Of a stretch of DNA of 37,039 nucleotides, positions 28,326-35,147 are shown in pieces. Below the pieces are notes generated by a model. It was not told the DNA's origin. It made no database searches and saw only the letters and a program-made list of their open reading frames with translations. The first letter of the stretch is position 1. Each line of letters opens with the position of its first letter. A program made the translations under genes and the position numbers. The DNA comes from Holophagaceae bacterium (GTDB lineage: Bacteria; Acidobacteriota; Holophagae; Holophagales; Holophagaceae), in NCBI GenBank assembly GCA_025361205.1, contig JANYAS010000128.1, positions 1-37,039 of the forward strand, given 5' to 3'.

Positions 28326-31298
28326 ATGGGCCCGCTGCTTGCAGGAAATCGATCCTCCCAAAGGGGATTCATCCAACGGCTTGTCACCGTCCTGGCATGG
28401 CTCTGGGCCTCCCTCACCGTTTTTGCACTGGATCCGTCCCGGCCCCTCTCCACCCATGCCCACCACACCTGGCGGAGTGAAGACGGGCTCCTGCAGGACA
28501 CCGCCACGGCCCTGCTCGAATCCCAGGACGGCTTCCTGTGGATCGGTACCGAGGGCGGCCTGACGCGTTTTGACGGGGTCGCCTTCGAGCACTATTCGCG
28601 GATCAATGTGCCGGGGTTTACCCACAATGAGGTCCAGTGCCTCGCCCAAGGCCCGGGCGGTGCCCTCTGGATCGGAACCTCCGAACCTGGGCTCTACCTG
28701 CTTCTGCGGGGCTCCATCCGCGCTTTCGGCCCGGCGGAAGGATTGCCCGACCGACCCATCCGCCGGTTGCTGAGAGATCGCCGCGGCACGCTCTGGGCGG
28801 CCCCCTCGGAAGGTCCCCTGCTCCGCTTCGACGGGACGAAATTCCAGGCAGTACCGTCGGATGGGACACACCTGCGGATCCGAGCCCTCGCCGAAGACAA
28901 GGACGGCACCCTCTGGGTAGGCGCGGCCGGTTCGGGCCTTTGGCGCCTCCGGGAGGGCCGTCTGGTCCTGGCCGCTCTCACGGCGGCGGAGATCACCGCC
29001 CTCGACACGGGGGCTGAGGGGGAAATCTGGGTGGGGACCAAGGCCCAGGGGCTCTTGGCCTTGACCGAGGGACGGCTCGAAACCCCAGCCTGGGCTCGGA
29101 GCCTGCCCGCCAAGCCCATCACGATCCTGCTGTGCGACCGGCAGGGCAGCCTGTGGATCGGTGTCGAACATGCTGGGGTTTTCCGCCGAACACGAGAGGG
29201 GCCGCTGGAGGCGGCGCCCCCGTCCATGGGCACCCGCTGGACCCCGTTGTCGCTGCTGGAGGACAGCTCCGGCGCCCTGTGGTCGGGGAGTGAGGACCGC
29301 GGGTTGAAGGTGCTCTACCCCGTACCCTTCCAGACCGTGCCCGTGTCCGGCGGCAATCCGGAGGAACCCGCCTGGATGGTCTGCCAGGACAGCCAAGGTA
29401 CCGTCTGGTGCCTGACGGGGGACCAGAGGCTCGGGGCGATCCGGAAAGGACGCATCGAACGCCTGCCTTCCGATGCTCAGCCCGGGGCCCCCCTTTCGGC
29501 CCTCTGGCCCCGCCGGGCTGGGGGACTGTGGGTCGGCACGCGCAATGGCGAGCTGTACGCCATGGATCAACACCAGTTTCGCCGGGTGCGATGGCCGGAA
29601 GGTCCACGGCCTGATGCCATCCTGTCCCTGTACGAGGACCCGCAGCAGGTCCTGTGGGTCGCCACCGCCCACCAGGGGCTCATGCGCTTCCCCCCGGACG
29701 GAGTGCCCACGCTGTTCCCGGCGATCCAGGGCGTGCAAACCATGGCCGGAGGCGGCACGGGTCCGCTGTATCTGGCCAATCTGACCCAGGGCCTGGGCGT
29801 CCTTGAGTCCGGCCAGGTCCGCTGGCTGGGCCGTGCGGAAGGGCTCGGATCGAGCGGTGTCCAATCCTTGTATCTGGATGGGGAAGGCTTCCTCTGGCTG
29901 GGCACCGTGAATGGCCTGCGGCGGTACCGGGACGGCGACTTCCAGACCTTTGGCGACCCAGCCAATGCCCTGCTGCTGGACATCCACACCATTCTAGAGG
30001 ACACCCACCACCAGATGTGGTTCAGCACCAGCCAAGGCGTCCTCAGGGTCTCCCGCCGGGCCCTGTTCAAGAGCTTGGGTGAGGCCGGACCCCTTTCAGC
30101 CATGGTCTTCGACCACCGCGATGGGATGCCCTCCCGCGAGACCCGGGGTGGCAGTCAGCCCGCCGCCTGGCTCACCCGGGAGGGGAATCTGTTCTTCTCC
30201 ACCAATCGGGGCCTGGCGCACATGAAACAGCGCGGGGAAACGCCCGCGGGACCGCCCCTCCGCCTTCACATCCTCAAGGCGGAAAGCGACGGAACCGTCC
30301 TCCCAGAGACCGTTCCCCTCCAGGTCCCCCCCGGTACCCATCGCTTCGAGGTGTCCTACGCCGGTACCTCCTTGACGCGACCCGAAAAGGTCCGCTACCG
30401 CTATCGGCTCGAGGGGTGGGAGCACACCTGGAACGAGGTGGGTGATCGCCGGTTCTCGGCCTACTCCAACCTGCCTTCGGGATCTTACCGCTTCGTGCTC
30501 CAGGCCTGGCGACTGGGCGAGGAGGGCCCCCATCAAGAGCGGTCCATCGCGGTCCACGTGCAACCCTTCGTCTATCAGCGACCGGTCTTCTGGGTGCTGT
30601 GTGGTCTTGGTGCAGCGGCCTTCGCCTGGTGGCTGCTGCGCCTGCGGCTCCAACAACTGGAGTCCCGCTCCGCCGTGCTGGCCGAACGGAACCGCATGGC
30701 CCGCGAAATCCATGACCACCTGGCCCAGGGCTTCACAGGTGTGCTGCTCCAACTGGAGGCCGCCGAAGCCAAGCTTTCCCGCATGGAGGGTGATCCGACC
30801 CCTGTCCTGACCCGCCTTGACCACGCGCGAAACCTCGCCGTCGCCAGCCTGCAGGACGCCCGGCGATCCGTGATGGCCCTCAGCCCACGGAAACCCGAGG
30901 GTGCCGATCTGTTGGGCGCCCTGCGCCTGCTGGCGGACCGGTTGCTGGCGGGTACCGACATCCAGGTGGAATTGGCCCAAACCGGAGAACCCCGTCCCCT
31001 CCGCAACCGTCTGGAGGAGGAACTCCTCCGCATGGCCCAGGAGATGCTCACCAACTCCCTGCGGCATGGCAAGGCGCGCTGGGTGCGCGTGGTGCTGCAA
31101 TTCGAGGGGCGGCAGGTGCGCCTCAGCATCGAGGATGACGGCCAAGGTTTCGACCCCTCCGCCAGCGCCGCTGGGTACGGCATGCGCAGCATTCGCGAAA
31201 GCATCAAACAACTTCGTGGCAACCTTGATATCGACAGCCTGCCGGGATTCGGTTCCCGCATCACCATCACCCTGCCCACCCGGAGGTGGCGCCCATGA
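28326..31298 (+). CDS. Two-component regulator propeller-type sensor histidine kinase
   Basis: Large sensor kinase, 990 residues from the ATG at 28326; ATG 28305 and TTG 28281 are alternatives and none has a good ribosome binding site. A signal or membrane segment (about 20-40) leads into about 14 short repeats of the Reg_prop type (for example DGFLWIGTEGGLTRFDG), expected to form a periplasmic beta-propeller. A Y_Y_Y domain follows (YRYRLEGWEHTWNEVG), then a membrane segment (about 755-775). A HisKA_3-type kinase ends the protein, with H796 in REIHDHLAQG, an ATPase N-box (EMLTNSLRHGKA) and EDDGQGFD. The stop overlaps the start of its NarL-type regulator by 4 nt. Confidence 0.92.
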   Translation: MGPLLAGNRSSQRGFIQRLVTVLAWLWASLTVFALDPSRPLSTHAHHTWRSEDGLLQDTATALLESQDGFLWIGTEGGLTRFDGVAFEHYSRINVPGFTHNEVQCLAQGPGGALWIGTSEPGLYLLLRGSIRAFGPAEGLPDRPIRRLLRDRRGTLWAAPSEGPLLRFDGTKFQAVPSDGTHLRIRALAEDKDGTLWVGAAGSGLWRLREGRLVLAALTAAEITALDTGAEGEIWVGTKAQGLLALTEGRLETPAWARSLPAKPITILLCDRQGSLWIGVEHAGVFRRTREGPLEAAPPSMGTRWTPLSLLEDSSGALWSGSEDRGLKVLYPVPFQTVPVSGGNPEEPAWMVCQDSQGTVWCLTGDQRLGAIRKGRIERLPSDAQPGAPLSALWPRRAGGLWVGTRNGELYAMDQHQFRRVRWPEGPRPDAILSLYEDPQQVLWVATAHQGLMRFPPDGVPTLFPAIQGVQTMAGGGTGPLYLANLTQGLGVLESGQVRWLGRAEGLGSSGVQSLYLDGEGFLWLGTVNGLRRYRDGDFQTFGDPANALLLDIHTILEDTHHQMWFSTSQGVLRVSRRALFKSLGEAGPLSAMVFDHRDGMPSRETRGGSQPAAWLTREGNLFFSTNRGLAHMKQRGETPAGPPLRLHILKAESDGTVLPETVPLQVPPGTHRFEVSYAGTSLTRPEKVRYRYRLEGWEHTWNEVGDRRFSAYSNLPSGSYRFVLQAWRLGEEGPHQERSIAVHVQPFVYQRPVFWVLCGLGAAAFAWWLLRLRLQQLESRSAVLAERNRMAREIHDHLAQGFTGVLLQLEAAEAKLSRMEGDPTPVLTRLDHARNLAVASLQDARRSVMALSPRKPEGADLLGALRLLADRLLAGTDIQVELAQTGEPRPLRNRLEEELLRMAQEMLTNSLRHGKARWVRVVLQFEGRQVRLSIEDDGQGFDPSASAAGYGMRSIRESIKQLRGNLDIDSLPGFGSRITITLPTRRWRP

Positions 31299-31939
31299 CC
31301 ACAACCCCGTCTGATCGGATCCGCCTGCTCATTGTGGACGACCACCCCGTCGTGCGAGACGGGCTCGTCTCCATCCTTCACGAAGGCGAGCCGGACCTTG
31401 AAGTTGTAGGCGAAGGGGGCGACGGGAAGGAGGCCGTGGTCCTTTGGAGAACCCTGCAGCCCACCGTGACGATCATGGATCTCCAACTGCCTGGCCAAAC
31501 CGGGGTGGAGGCCATCCAGGCCATCCGCCGGGAAGATCCCGAGGCCAAGATCCTGGTGCTCACCACCTTCGATGGCGATGCGGACATTCAGCGGGCCCTC
31601 GAAGCCGGCGCCCGGGGCTACCTGCTCAAGAGCGTGCGCCGCGCCACCCTCATCGAGGCCGTGCGGGCCGTGGCCGCCGGCCAACGGTATCTCCCCCCGG
31701 CGACCGCGGCCCGCCTGGTCGAAGCCATGGAAGCCGAGCGGTTGACCCCCCGGGAACTGGACGTGCTCCGCCTGCTGGCGCTGGGGGAGCGCAACCGCGA
31801 GATCGCCGATACCCTGGGCTTAGCCGAGCCCACCGTGAAAATCCACGTGAACAACCTGCTGCGAAAGCTGCAGGCCAAGGACCGCACGGAGGCAGCCATG
31901 ATCGCCCTCAAGCGCGGGCTGATCCACCTCGCGCCCTAA
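31295..31939 (+). CDS. NarL/LuxR-family response regulator
   Basis: DNA-binding regulator of 214 residues. The receiver begins IRLLIVDDHPVVRDG, with phospho-acceptor D62 (TIMDLQLPG) and K112 (YLLKS). The C-terminal LuxR-type helix-turn-helix is LTPRELDVLRLLALGERNREIADTLGLAEPTVKIHVNNLLRKL. The ATG overlaps the kinase stop as ATGA, so the two are translationally coupled. The pairing of a HisKA_3 kinase with a NarL regulator is the usual one and makes them a very likely cognate pair. GGAGG lies upstream within the kinase gene. Targets are unknown. Confidence 0.94.
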   Translation: MTTTPSDRIRLLIVDDHPVVRDGLVSILHEGEPDLEVVGEGGDGKEAVVLWRTLQPTVTIMDLQLPGQTGVEAIQAIRREDPEAKILVLTTFDGDADIQRALEAGARGYLLKSVRRATLIEAVRAVAAGQRYLPPATAARLVEAMEAERLTPRELDVLRLLALGERNREIADTLGLAEPTVKIHVNNLLRKLQAKDRTEAAMIALKRGLIHLAP

Positions 31940-31974
31940 GCGATCATACGGATTCGCATTCAAAAAGATAAGGA

Positions 31975-32099
31975 TCACCACCAAGACACCAGTAATCATT
32001 TCGCCTCTTGTATCGCCGCAGGCGAAACCGAGAGGGCACCAAGAAAAGCGAAAGCCAATATCGATGCACTTCTTGGTGCCCTTGGCGCCTTGGTGGTGA
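31975..32099. repeat. Nested inverted-repeat element (MITE-like or structured RNA)
   Basis: Three nested or adjacent inverted repeats fill the gap between converging genes. The outer pair is TCACCACCAAG (31975-31985) with CTTGGTGGTGA (32089-32099), 11 bp. The inner pair is AGGGCACCAAGAA (32033-32045) with TTCTTGGTGCCCT (32070-32082), 13 bp. A separate hairpin is TTTCGCCT (31999-32006) with AGGCGAAA (32020-32027). All are perfect. The repeated unit CACCAAG recurs in both arms. No protein is encoded. It may be a non-autonomous mobile element, a family of intergenic repeats or a bidirectional terminator. Confidence 0.7.
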
Positions 32100-32135
32100 A
32101 TTTGCCATTTCTTTCGTTCTGAACGCTCGTTGGTA

Positions 32136-35100
32136 TCAGGCCTCCAAGACTCCCTGGATCTTGGCCAGCAGATCCCGGGGACCGTACGGCTTCTGTATGA
32201 AACCCTTCAGGCCCTTGCCCATGAAGCGGCCCATGGCCTCGAGCTCGTTGTAGCCAGAGCTGAGGATCACCCGCAGGTCGGGCCGGAGGAGCCGCATCTC
32301 CCGGAAGGCAGCCTCGCCGCCCATGTGGGGCATGGTCATGTCCAGCAGGACGAGGCCAATGGCCCCCCCGTGTTCCTCCACCAGGTCCACCGCCACGCGT
32401 CCATCGTGCGCCTCCAGGACCCGGAAGCCCTTGAACTCCAATGCCTGTCGCGCCACCGCACGCACGGTCTCATCATCGTCCACCACCAGAATCAGCGCAC
32501 TGCCCCGCCAGGCTGTCTCGCGAGACGGGCCCGCGCTCGCTTCGGCGCTGGCGCCCGCTGCGGGTAAGAGCACCTTGAAGGTCGTGCCCTTGCCGACCTC
32601 GGAGTAGACCCGCAAAGCCCCCTTGTGGCCGCGGACGATGCCCATGATGGCCGAGAGACCCAGGCCCCGGCCCGTGAACTTGGTGGTGTAGAAGGGTTCA
32701 AAGATGCGGTCCAGAGTCTCGGCATCCATGCCGCACCCGGTGTCCGTCACTTCCAGGTACACGTAGAAACCCGAGGGGGCGTCCTGACCGACCAGCATCC
32801 TGCCCATGGCGGTCGTGTCGAGGTGCTGGGCTCCCGTGGCGAGGGTGATGGCGCCGGACGCATCGCCGATGGCCTCGGCGGCGTTGATCATCAGATTCAT
32901 GATCACCTGCTGGATCTGGGACGCGTCCGCCGACACCGCCGGGAGACGCCTGTGGAGATCCAGGTTGAGTACCACCGTCTTGGAAAGGCTCACTTCGAGG
33001 AGGTGCATCATTTCCTCCACCTGGGACGTGAGATCCAGGGTTTGCACGACGAACTGTCCGCGGCCGGAATAGGCCAGCATCTGCCGCGTGAGATCCGCCG
33101 CGCGCAACCCCGCCTTCTGAATGGCCTCCAGGTTCCGCCGGGCCGGATGCAGCGGATTCAGCTGCTCGAGCGCCAGCCCTGCGTGGCCTAGCACCCCCAT
33201 GAGGAGGTTGTTGAAGTCATGGGCGATGCCCCCGGCCAGGACCCCCAGGCTTTCCGTTTTTTGGGATTGGAACAGCTGGCGTTCAAGCGTGACCCGTTCC
33301 ACCTCGGCCCGCTTCTGGGCGGTGATGTCGCGGATGACGGCATGGTAGGTCCGCTGTGTGCCCAGAAGATACTGGGTGATGGCCACCTCACAGGTCAGCT
33401 CGCGTCCCGTCGCATGGAGGAAGGTCCACTCGAACCGGTTGCGTTCGCCGGCTTTCACTTCCACCAGGAAGGTCAAGGCGGCTTGGTCGCTGGGCACGCC
33501 GGACGGCTGCAGGGTCGGACTCAATCGGGTGGGATTGGCCCCCACGAGGCCCTCGATCGGGTACCCGAACAGGGCTACCGTGGCTTGGTTCACATCCACG
33601 ATCAGGCCGCGCACGAGAAGCGCGATGGGATCCGGTGATTGTTCAAAAATGAGGCGGAACCGCGCTTCCTCATCCTCCAAGGCCTTTCGTGCATGGAGGC
33701 GATTCAAGACGAGCCCCGCGGTCTCGGCCAGGCTCTCCAAGGCCTTGAAGCGGTCATCGGAGACCGGGACATGCCCCTGATCCCCGAACGATCCCCCGTT
33801 GAGCGTCCCGGCTACGTCTCCTTCATGGAGCAGGGGAAGGCTCACCAGCGTGCGAAAGGGCCAGAGACCGACGTCTGGGAGGTCGGGATGCCCTTCGCAC
33901 CTGGGAATGAGCGTGGCTAAATGACGCTTGTGAATGTCTACAAGGGTGGGGCTGTCATCAATGTAGACCGCACGCTGGATGTCTTCGGCCGTCCCGAAGG
34001 CTTCAAGACCGGGGGTCCATTGGGTGGTGGTGGCGGTCCGCGTGCCGGGATCGTAGCGGTTGAGCCACCACTCCGGCAAGGGAGCCAGCCGGGCCGCCCA
34101 ATGGAAAAGGGTCGCCACCAGGGCCTTCTCCTCGGCCGCCCCGGCCAGATCCCTCACGGCGGCTGCGAGGTTCCGGGCCAGCCCTGCCGAGGCCTCCAGG
34201 CGAATCTCCGCCTGCAGGCGCTCCAGGGCCAGGGCCGCAATCCGGGCCAGGTTCTGCAGCACCGAACACTGGGCCTCGCGGGGTGAGAACGGGGGCTCGT
34301 CCTGGAACCCCACCGCGAACAGAATGCCCGTAATGCGGCCTTCGAAGACCAGGGGAACTCCGAGCAGGCTCCTCAGCGCATGGGCCTGCGCAATGGCGGG
34401 ATGGATCATGTCCGGAGCGGCCAGGGCATCCGCCACGAAACACAACCGGCGGTGGTCGCAGACCTCCCGCGCCAAGCCCGTGTCGAAGATGGGGATGCCG
34501 AGTCCCTCGATGGTCGGTCCGATGCGCGCGCGGAGGGAGGGCGTCCAGCCCTCAAGGGCCACTGTCCTCTGCCCCTCCTCGGATTCGACCCGGCCGAGGA
34601 ACCAGTGGGGTCCAGGCAGGACGGCCGCAGCCCGGCCCATCAGGACCTGGAAGGCCTCTTTCCGCGTCCGGGTGAGGCTGAGGGAATAGATCCCCTCCGC
34701 CAGATGACGCTGAAGGTCGATGCTCTCCCTTTGACGGTCCGCCCGCAGCTGCTCCTCGGTGTGATCCCGGCTCCAAATGAACAAGCGGTCTCCGGCCTCG
34801 GTGCGCAGGCCCACCACCGAGAGTCGGACCGGCAGGACGCTTCCGTCCTGCCGCAGCCAGGTGGCGGCCTGGAAGGCCTCCCCTGCCCGATCGAAGGATT
34901 GGAGGAACCATGCCCGGGCCTGGTCCGGCGGCAGGTCCTGGCGAAGGCGCTCAAATCCGATACCCGAGAGATCCCCGTCCGCCACGCCGAGAAATTCCAT
35001 GAATCGCGGATTCGCGTGCAGCACCCGACCCGTGCGATCCATCACGTGGAAGGCCATGGACGTGTGTTCAAAGAGACCGAAGAGGGCCTCCTCCCCAGCC

Positions 35101-35147
35101 GCACTAAGCGGCCCGGTCGCGGGGGGCAGGGATGGTGCTGCGTCCAA
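32136..35147 (-). CDS. PAS/GAF hybrid sensor histidine kinase with receiver
   Basis: Soluble hybrid kinase of 1003 residues with no membrane segment. Order: PAS (about 20-135, FEHTSMAFHVMDRTGRVLHANP), GAF (about 155-315), a second GAF-like region (about 335-495), PAS (about 505-625, FRLIFEQSPDPIALLV), HisKA with H643 (GGIAHDFNN), ATPase (NLMINAAEAI, DTGCGMD, GRGLGLSA), and a receiver with D936 (LVLLDMTMP) and K986 (IQKPY). The start is a TTG at 35145-35147 with GGGGA upstream, the only start that keeps the first PAS whole. No output regulator is adjacent on this strand. The lack of a membrane anchor suggests sensing of a cytoplasmic signal. Confidence 0.92.
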   Translation of the reverse strand: MDAAPSLPPATGPLSAAGEEALFGLFEHTSMAFHVMDRTGRVLHANPRFMEFLGVADGDLSGIGFERLRQDLPPDQARAWFLQSFDRAGEAFQAATWLRQDGSVLPVRLSVVGLRTEAGDRLFIWSRDHTEEQLRADRQRESIDLQRHLAEGIYSLSLTRTRKEAFQVLMGRAAAVLPGPHWFLGRVESEEGQRTVALEGWTPSLRARIGPTIEGLGIPIFDTGLAREVCDHRRLCFVADALAAPDMIHPAIAQAHALRSLLGVPLVFEGRITGILFAVGFQDEPPFSPREAQCSVLQNLARIAALALERLQAEIRLEASAGLARNLAAAVRDLAGAAEEKALVATLFHWAARLAPLPEWWLNRYDPGTRTATTTQWTPGLEAFGTAEDIQRAVYIDDSPTLVDIHKRHLATLIPRCEGHPDLPDVGLWPFRTLVSLPLLHEGDVAGTLNGGSFGDQGHVPVSDDRFKALESLAETAGLVLNRLHARKALEDEEARFRLIFEQSPDPIALLVRGLIVDVNQATVALFGYPIEGLVGANPTRLSPTLQPSGVPSDQAALTFLVEVKAGERNRFEWTFLHATGRELTCEVAITQYLLGTQRTYHAVIRDITAQKRAEVERVTLERQLFQSQKTESLGVLAGGIAHDFNNLLMGVLGHAGLALEQLNPLHPARRNLEAIQKAGLRAADLTRQMLAYSGRGQFVVQTLDLTSQVEEMMHLLEVSLSKTVVLNLDLHRRLPAVSADASQIQQVIMNLMINAAEAIGDASGAITLATGAQHLDTTAMGRMLVGQDAPSGFYVYLEVTDTGCGMDAETLDRIFEPFYTTKFTGRGLGLSAIMGIVRGHKGALRVYSEVGKGTTFKVLLPAAGASAEASAGPSRETAWRGSALILVVDDDETVRAVARQALEFKGFRVLEAHDGRVAVDLVEEHGGAIGLVLLDMTMPHMGGEAAFREMRLLRPDLRVILSSGYNELEAMGRFMGKGLKGFIQKPYGPRDLLAKIQGVLEA

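Follow-up and report, generated by a model that had tools for sequence, protein, structure and literature searches.

What is the nested inverted repeat that lies between two two-component genes of this Holophagaceae genome, and how did it arrive there? Named matches and kinship tables point to Geothrix, a soil bacterium of the Holophagaceae (Acidobacteriota), as the genus. In the window (the whole stretch of 37,039 nt analysed here), a NarL/LuxR-type response regulator gene on the plus strand (31286-31939) is followed by a PAS/GAF hybrid histidine kinase gene on the minus strand (32136-35147, stop codon TGA), so that the two neighbours converge. The original prediction placed between them a GC-poorer element at 31975-32099 and proposed that it was a MITE-like mobile element, a member of an interspersed repeat family or a structured transcript. 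Our gene calls end at 31939 (plus) and 32136 (minus), G+C is 0.49-0.56 inside versus 0.60-0.77 around, and the element carries no genes. All three of the inverted repeats that had been described (11, 13 and 8 bp, the outer pair enclosing the rest) were recovered in place. The boundaries, however, had been drawn too short: similarity among aligned copies from the same genome continues past them, left as far as TCATACGGATTCGCATTC and right as far as GAACGCTCGTTGGTATCA, and the element with its target duplication spans 31944-32138. Its parts are as follows.

31944-31946, no strand: left target duplication TCA, 3 bp; direct TNA duplications are seen across copies
31947-32135, no strand: whole element, very probably MITE-like, 189 bp between the target duplications; its ends are common to copies across the genome and the genus
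31947-31961, plus strand: left terminal inverted repeat TACGGATTCGCATTC, following the pattern TNATACN6GCRWTC
31975-31991, plus strand: outer part of the CACCAAG hairpin's left arm, covering the first unit and the beginning of the second; across 110 copies the first-unit columns are all but invariant
31992-32032, plus strand: module B, a third-level repeat nested in the left arm, which it interrupts; independent copies occur elsewhere, and it is absent from similar copies such as L009
32005-32032, plus strand: module B hairpin CTCTTGTATCGCCGCAGGCGAAACCGAG with one bulged base; in the 21-copy alignment the window copy is decayed (G to T, T to A)
32033-32045, plus strand: inner left arm, 13 bp perfect, the remainder of the interrupted left arm
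32046-32069, plus strand: hairpin loop, 24 nt; its orientation varies among orthologous copies in other species
32070-32099, plus strand: uninterrupted right arm TTCTTGGTGCCCTTGGCGCCTTGGTGGTGA, three units
32121-32135, minus strand: right terminal inverted repeat GAACGCTCGTTGGTA (minus strand reads TACCAACGAGCGTTC), found almost solely at element ends
32136-32138, minus strand: right target duplication TCA, which on this strand reads TGA and ends the PAS/GAF kinase frame

The terminal repeats TACGGATTCGCATTC and GAACGCTCGTTGGTA are imperfect. Within them, the outer arm repeat (31975-31991/32083-32099) is 17 nt long at 88% identity and perfect over its outermost 11 bp (TCACCACCAAG/CTTGGTGGTGA), and the 13-bp repeat pairs 32033-32045 with 32070-32082. 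The 8-bp repeat TTTCGCCT/AGGCGAAA (31999-32006/32020-32027) is present but largely incidental. It hangs on one base (GATACC to GAAACC), because a T-to-A change in the decayed module B of the window copy creates it, a change shared with one other copy (L003); the stem conserved in most copies is CTCG[CT]GTATCGCC/GGCGATACCGAG, unlike this repeat. The element folds far better than dinucleotide shuffles on each strand (z -5.7 and -6.9; 0 of 200 shuffles as good).

A survey of the element's own genome, by query matches and by reading of stretches, placed it in a large family, and the single-copy outcome that would have spoken against mobility was not seen. The genome gave 87 BLAST matches, including several near-full-length copies at 88-94%; the arm end CTTGGTGGTGA occurs 57 times, versus 3 for controls, and TNA followed by TACN6GCRWTC occurs 28 times, versus 1 for the reversed-pattern control (21 versus 0 in the complete genome G040). 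Distribution is patchy: counts of the arm motif range from 0 to 90 among Geothrix genomes, and 27 of the 297 Acidobacteriota genomes have it (control zero). The same ends also enclose other interiors: sister elements carry CACGAAG or CGCCAAG arms, and a 43-bp element (L252, flanks TCA/TCA) has no core at all. A CACCAAG copy (L380) holds one CACGAAG-type sister, flanked by TGA/TGA, in its loop. At the orthologous junction in a sister species (G009, the closest match over both flanks), a 116-bp sequence of a different kind stands in place of the element, and in most other Geothrix inspected the site holds different sequence or additional genes. The insertion is thus specific to its lineage. Many Geothrix cores lack ends of the TNATACN6GCRWTC type altogether, and for cores without terminal repeats we saw no clean empty site or duplication.

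Other repeats share these neighbourhoods. Six loci of the same genome (L071, L074, L077, L078, L079 and L082, on C10, C127, C150, C140, C79 and C182) hold another interspersed family, gatgccaggcgggatgctcatc ... gaagggcccgcagggcgatgtggttcatcgttcaa, which carries the same mini-hairpin as module B and has several copies at contig ends. In the right flanks of L004, L019 and L011 (C166, C146, C86), a further common repeat, part of which reads ...tcgccctgcgggcgcgcgaaaggcgatcggacag, adjoins the element or takes the place of parts of it.

The flanks of the element ends record how copies were inserted. Automated end finding gave identical flanking trinucleotides in 10 of 19 pairs (shuffle p 0.017; 0 in the inverted sense), and a wider automated list gave 24 of 44 candidate pairs, some of them overlapping or implausible. 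After these were removed from the 44 by hand, a curation that is itself a weakness, the TNA flanks were identical in 22 of 34 Geothrix pairs (shuffled mean 9.8, p about 1e-5), leaving about one third of end pairs with flanks that do not match. Since the identical pairs comprise TAA, TCA, TGA and TTA, with all four middle bases, the duplication rule is TNA; a pyrimidine is common just before it. A paralogous empty site shows the duplication directly: GCAGCCGC-TCA-element-TCA-GATCCTG at L008 corresponds to GCAGCGGC-TCA-GATCCTG at L434, one TCA having become two.

The 189-bp element is thus short, non-coding and multicopy, with common terminal inverted repeats, and it shows target-site duplication in both the TNA pairs and the empty site; an autonomous partner is usual for MITEs and not strictly required. 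Many copies with the same ends and flanking duplications, in this genome and its relatives, bear out the MITE-like or interspersed-repeat reading. Imperfect terminal repeats, shared ends in many copies, the TNA duplication, the empty site, the patchy copy number and the sister nested in a loop together make it very probable that this is a non-autonomous MITE-like transposable element of Geothrix, moved in trans.

What moved it was sought among the Y1, DUF4096 and PF01609 families, in which no transposase with these ends was found. The element's own genome contains no Y1 (PF01797) and no DUF4096 transposase gene; it has two PF01609 loci, and no element ends were seen at the one inspected. The copy-rich complete genome G040 gave no PF01609 or DUF4096 match, and no paired ends at gene-length distance, the mark of an autonomous relative, were found in G000 or G040. 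Across the genus, the DUF4096 and PF01609 loci inspected had no matching ends, which speaks against these IS5-type elements as the mobiliser. One Geothrix genome (G019) carries a DUF4096 insertion sequence in about ten nearly identical copies (L248, L259, L261-L268), and the element's ends were not found at those loci. The mobiliser is likely a transposase that has been lost or that lies outside those examined.

One candidate association, with genes for the 23S rRNA intervening-sequence protein (PF05635, a four-helix bundle), was discarded, as the hairpin does not flank them.

The window copy lies exactly at a stop codon, and this proved to be a common position. Using a codon-usage score trained on the window's long reading frames, we tested canonical ends whose duplication reads TGA or TAA outward. 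The kinase coding frame ends exactly at the right TCA (32136-32138; log-odds 29.2), and a coding frame ends exactly at the duplicated trinucleotide in 18 of 29 eligible ends. Stop codons make up 140 of 837 non-coding or stop-codon TNA sites (about 17%) in the Geothrix loci, those of relatives and the window, a null built on simple gene calls from loci that themselves contain elements; against it, the binomial probability of at least 18 of 29 is about 5e-8. One such gene has an orthologue in the element's own genome that lacks the element and stops at the same codon (L210 versus L046). The excess shows an association rather than targeting, because insertions elsewhere may simply be lost.

These observations suggest the following course of events. 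A DDE-type transposase with a TNA target would have cut and pasted the element in trans. At this locus the insertion would have hit the kinase's TGA stop and doubled it, leaving the PAS/GAF kinase intact. The CACCAAG palindrome is a separable interior module, and a smaller REP-like hairpin would later have inserted into one of its arms. Copies would persist mainly at gene 3' ends, where they are harmless, and might incidentally act as two-way terminators or mRNA-end hairpins. A bolder version, which we consider unlikely, has the transposase itself preferring stop codons (TNA plus a favoured flanking base, perhaps with 3'-end context), so that it rebuilds TGA or TAA and spares genes, with the CACCAAG palindrome as a separately mobile cargo that has crossed phyla.

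Two of the layers can be followed on their own. The palindrome is also present, with no such ends, in Azospirillum, Rhodocyclaceae, Phycisphaerales and Syntrophobacteraceae. In Geothrix the element's interior varies: at L010 it is inverted relative to the ends, the hairpin loop is oppositely oriented in one orthologous pair (L118 versus L124), and in another, from two species (L282 versus L328), flanks and loop are identical and the copies differ by one CACCAAG unit in both arms, which suggests coupled gain or loss of units. The phages searched for the element and the plasmids searched for the Azospirillum form gave no match, although such short repetitive queries may be filtered. In the window as a whole (1-37039), CACCAAG occurs 15 times versus 5.1 expected, 11 of them outside the element. 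In a distant Acidobacteriota family (G071:C115, about 1120-1541), CACCAAG motifs lie on one strand at a spacing of ~100-200 bases, resembling a tandem array.

The hairpin of module B is 28 nt long and has a 12-pair stem starting CTCG, one bulged base and a 3-nt loop. Copies were found at several other places, and orthologous copies of the element (L144/L169, L321/L131) differ in whether they carry it at a given position. In the alignment of 21 copies, 96% of cells are paired and 19 are double-change cells, a level reached by 0 of 500 shuffles and with little signal when the pairing is slid. The CACCAAG arms give no support to the structured-transcript reading, since their variable position shows no covariation over 110 copies; compensatory change is found in the nested mini-hairpin only. 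Rfam returned no match at gathering score, and with arms of this kind the element does not qualify as a structured-ncRNA family.

Could the hairpin instead be kept for what it does? It may be a functional two-way transcription terminator, or a stabiliser of mRNA 3' ends, that is under selection, with mobility as history only. The neighbours of 114 classable cores are 61 tandem, 51 convergent and only 2 divergent, compared with 86, 42 and 23 when every gene pair of the reference loci is counted (p about 1.5e-6). The fold is very stable, the hairpin is followed on either strand by a T-rich stretch (about 5.4 T of 12), and at some orthologous junctions a copy persists in as many as five species despite changes of units and loop. 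However, a terminator consensus scan of the window gave no hit, the arms do not covary, the side facing transcripts is barely richer in T than the other (5.42 versus 5.22), and presence is patchy across species; the GAT-side versus ATC-side type of flank shows no association with gene direction. We hold this account to be possible and somewhat doubtful, and keep the selfish-element reading as primary, with two-way termination as a possible by-product.

Two further accounts start from the inner layers. A nucleoid or global regulator protein could bind the unit arrays as paired sites, and selection for this binding could have spread them: the CACCAAG columns hardly change over 110 copies or between phyla, the loops vary, orthologous copies differ in unit number, and a similar role has been proposed for the heptanucleotide-repeat pairs of Geobacter metallireducens (PMC2700814). 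Such sites would leave the terminal repeats, TNA duplications and empty site unexplained, the sisters with the same ends have CACGAAG arms or, in one case, no core, and the DNA-binding protein is putative, all of which makes this account quite improbable. We give still less credence to a REP-type element mobilised as a single-stranded hairpin by a RAYT (HUH) transposase. Module B, as a small bulged hairpin with compensatory changes, would suit it, and REPs likewise lie between tandem and convergent genes (PMC3733652), but the element's own genome has no PF01797 gene and the outer element shows the hallmarks of a double-strand transposon, so that for the whole element this reading is weak. Nor does module B belong to the GTAG/CGTC REPs: it lacks GTAG, and its stem and loop depart from the CGTC type, which is defined by an unpaired tag, an 8-9 bp stem starting with AT pairs and a loop of 4-5 nt (PMC3733652).

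The preferred reading, a non-autonomous transposable element, has wider implications. A 3-bp TNA duplication that rebuilds the stop codon would give a small transposon a simple route to fill a compact genome and leave genes unbroken. Because the three layers (terminal repeats, CACCAAG palindrome and mini-hairpin) are each found without the others, the order of events can be read, and the same palindrome core in several phyla poses the question of transfer versus retention by a common binding factor.

Among known systems, the IS1031 group of the IS5 family, with the MITEs that descend from it, comes closest in target choice: its members, such as ISLrh, use TNA targets with an exclusive 3-bp direct repeat that includes TGA (PMC12016507), as the Geothrix element does. 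The terminal repeats differ, however, ISLrh ends beginning GAACC... and those of Geothrix TAC..., and the DUF4096 transposase is the one absent from this genome, with no shared ends at the DUF4096/PF01609 loci inspected. Eukaryotic NuwaII and PIF-Harbinger (PHIS) elements also duplicate TNA, preferring C before and G after it (PMC4482050), which recalls the pyrimidine before TNA in Geothrix, although this is a likeness of target, and to a eukaryotic system. REP and CGTC-tagged repeats, for which the CGTC type has no dedicated transposase (PMC3733652), are likewise small intergenic hairpins downstream of genes; the outer Geothrix element differs from them in its terminal repeats and TNA duplication, and module B in its bulged 12-pair CTCG stem. 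The paired tandem-heptanucleotide sites of G. metallireducens (classes 1-4) are also intergenic, multicopy arrays of short tandem units paired on opposite strands, but their unit sequences differ and they are putative regulator sites, not transposable elements (PMC2700814). BOX, RUP and SPRITE of Streptococcus pneumoniae are likewise small and intergenic and insert inside each other (PMC10969869), a nesting like that seen here, with different sequences and, for RUP, TA targets (PMC2229807) rather than TNA. The exact strings of the element were not found under a published name in the open-access literature. The kind of element is thus known, and the combination of a TNA/stop-codon duplication, a palindrome built of units and a nested mini-hairpin appears to be new.
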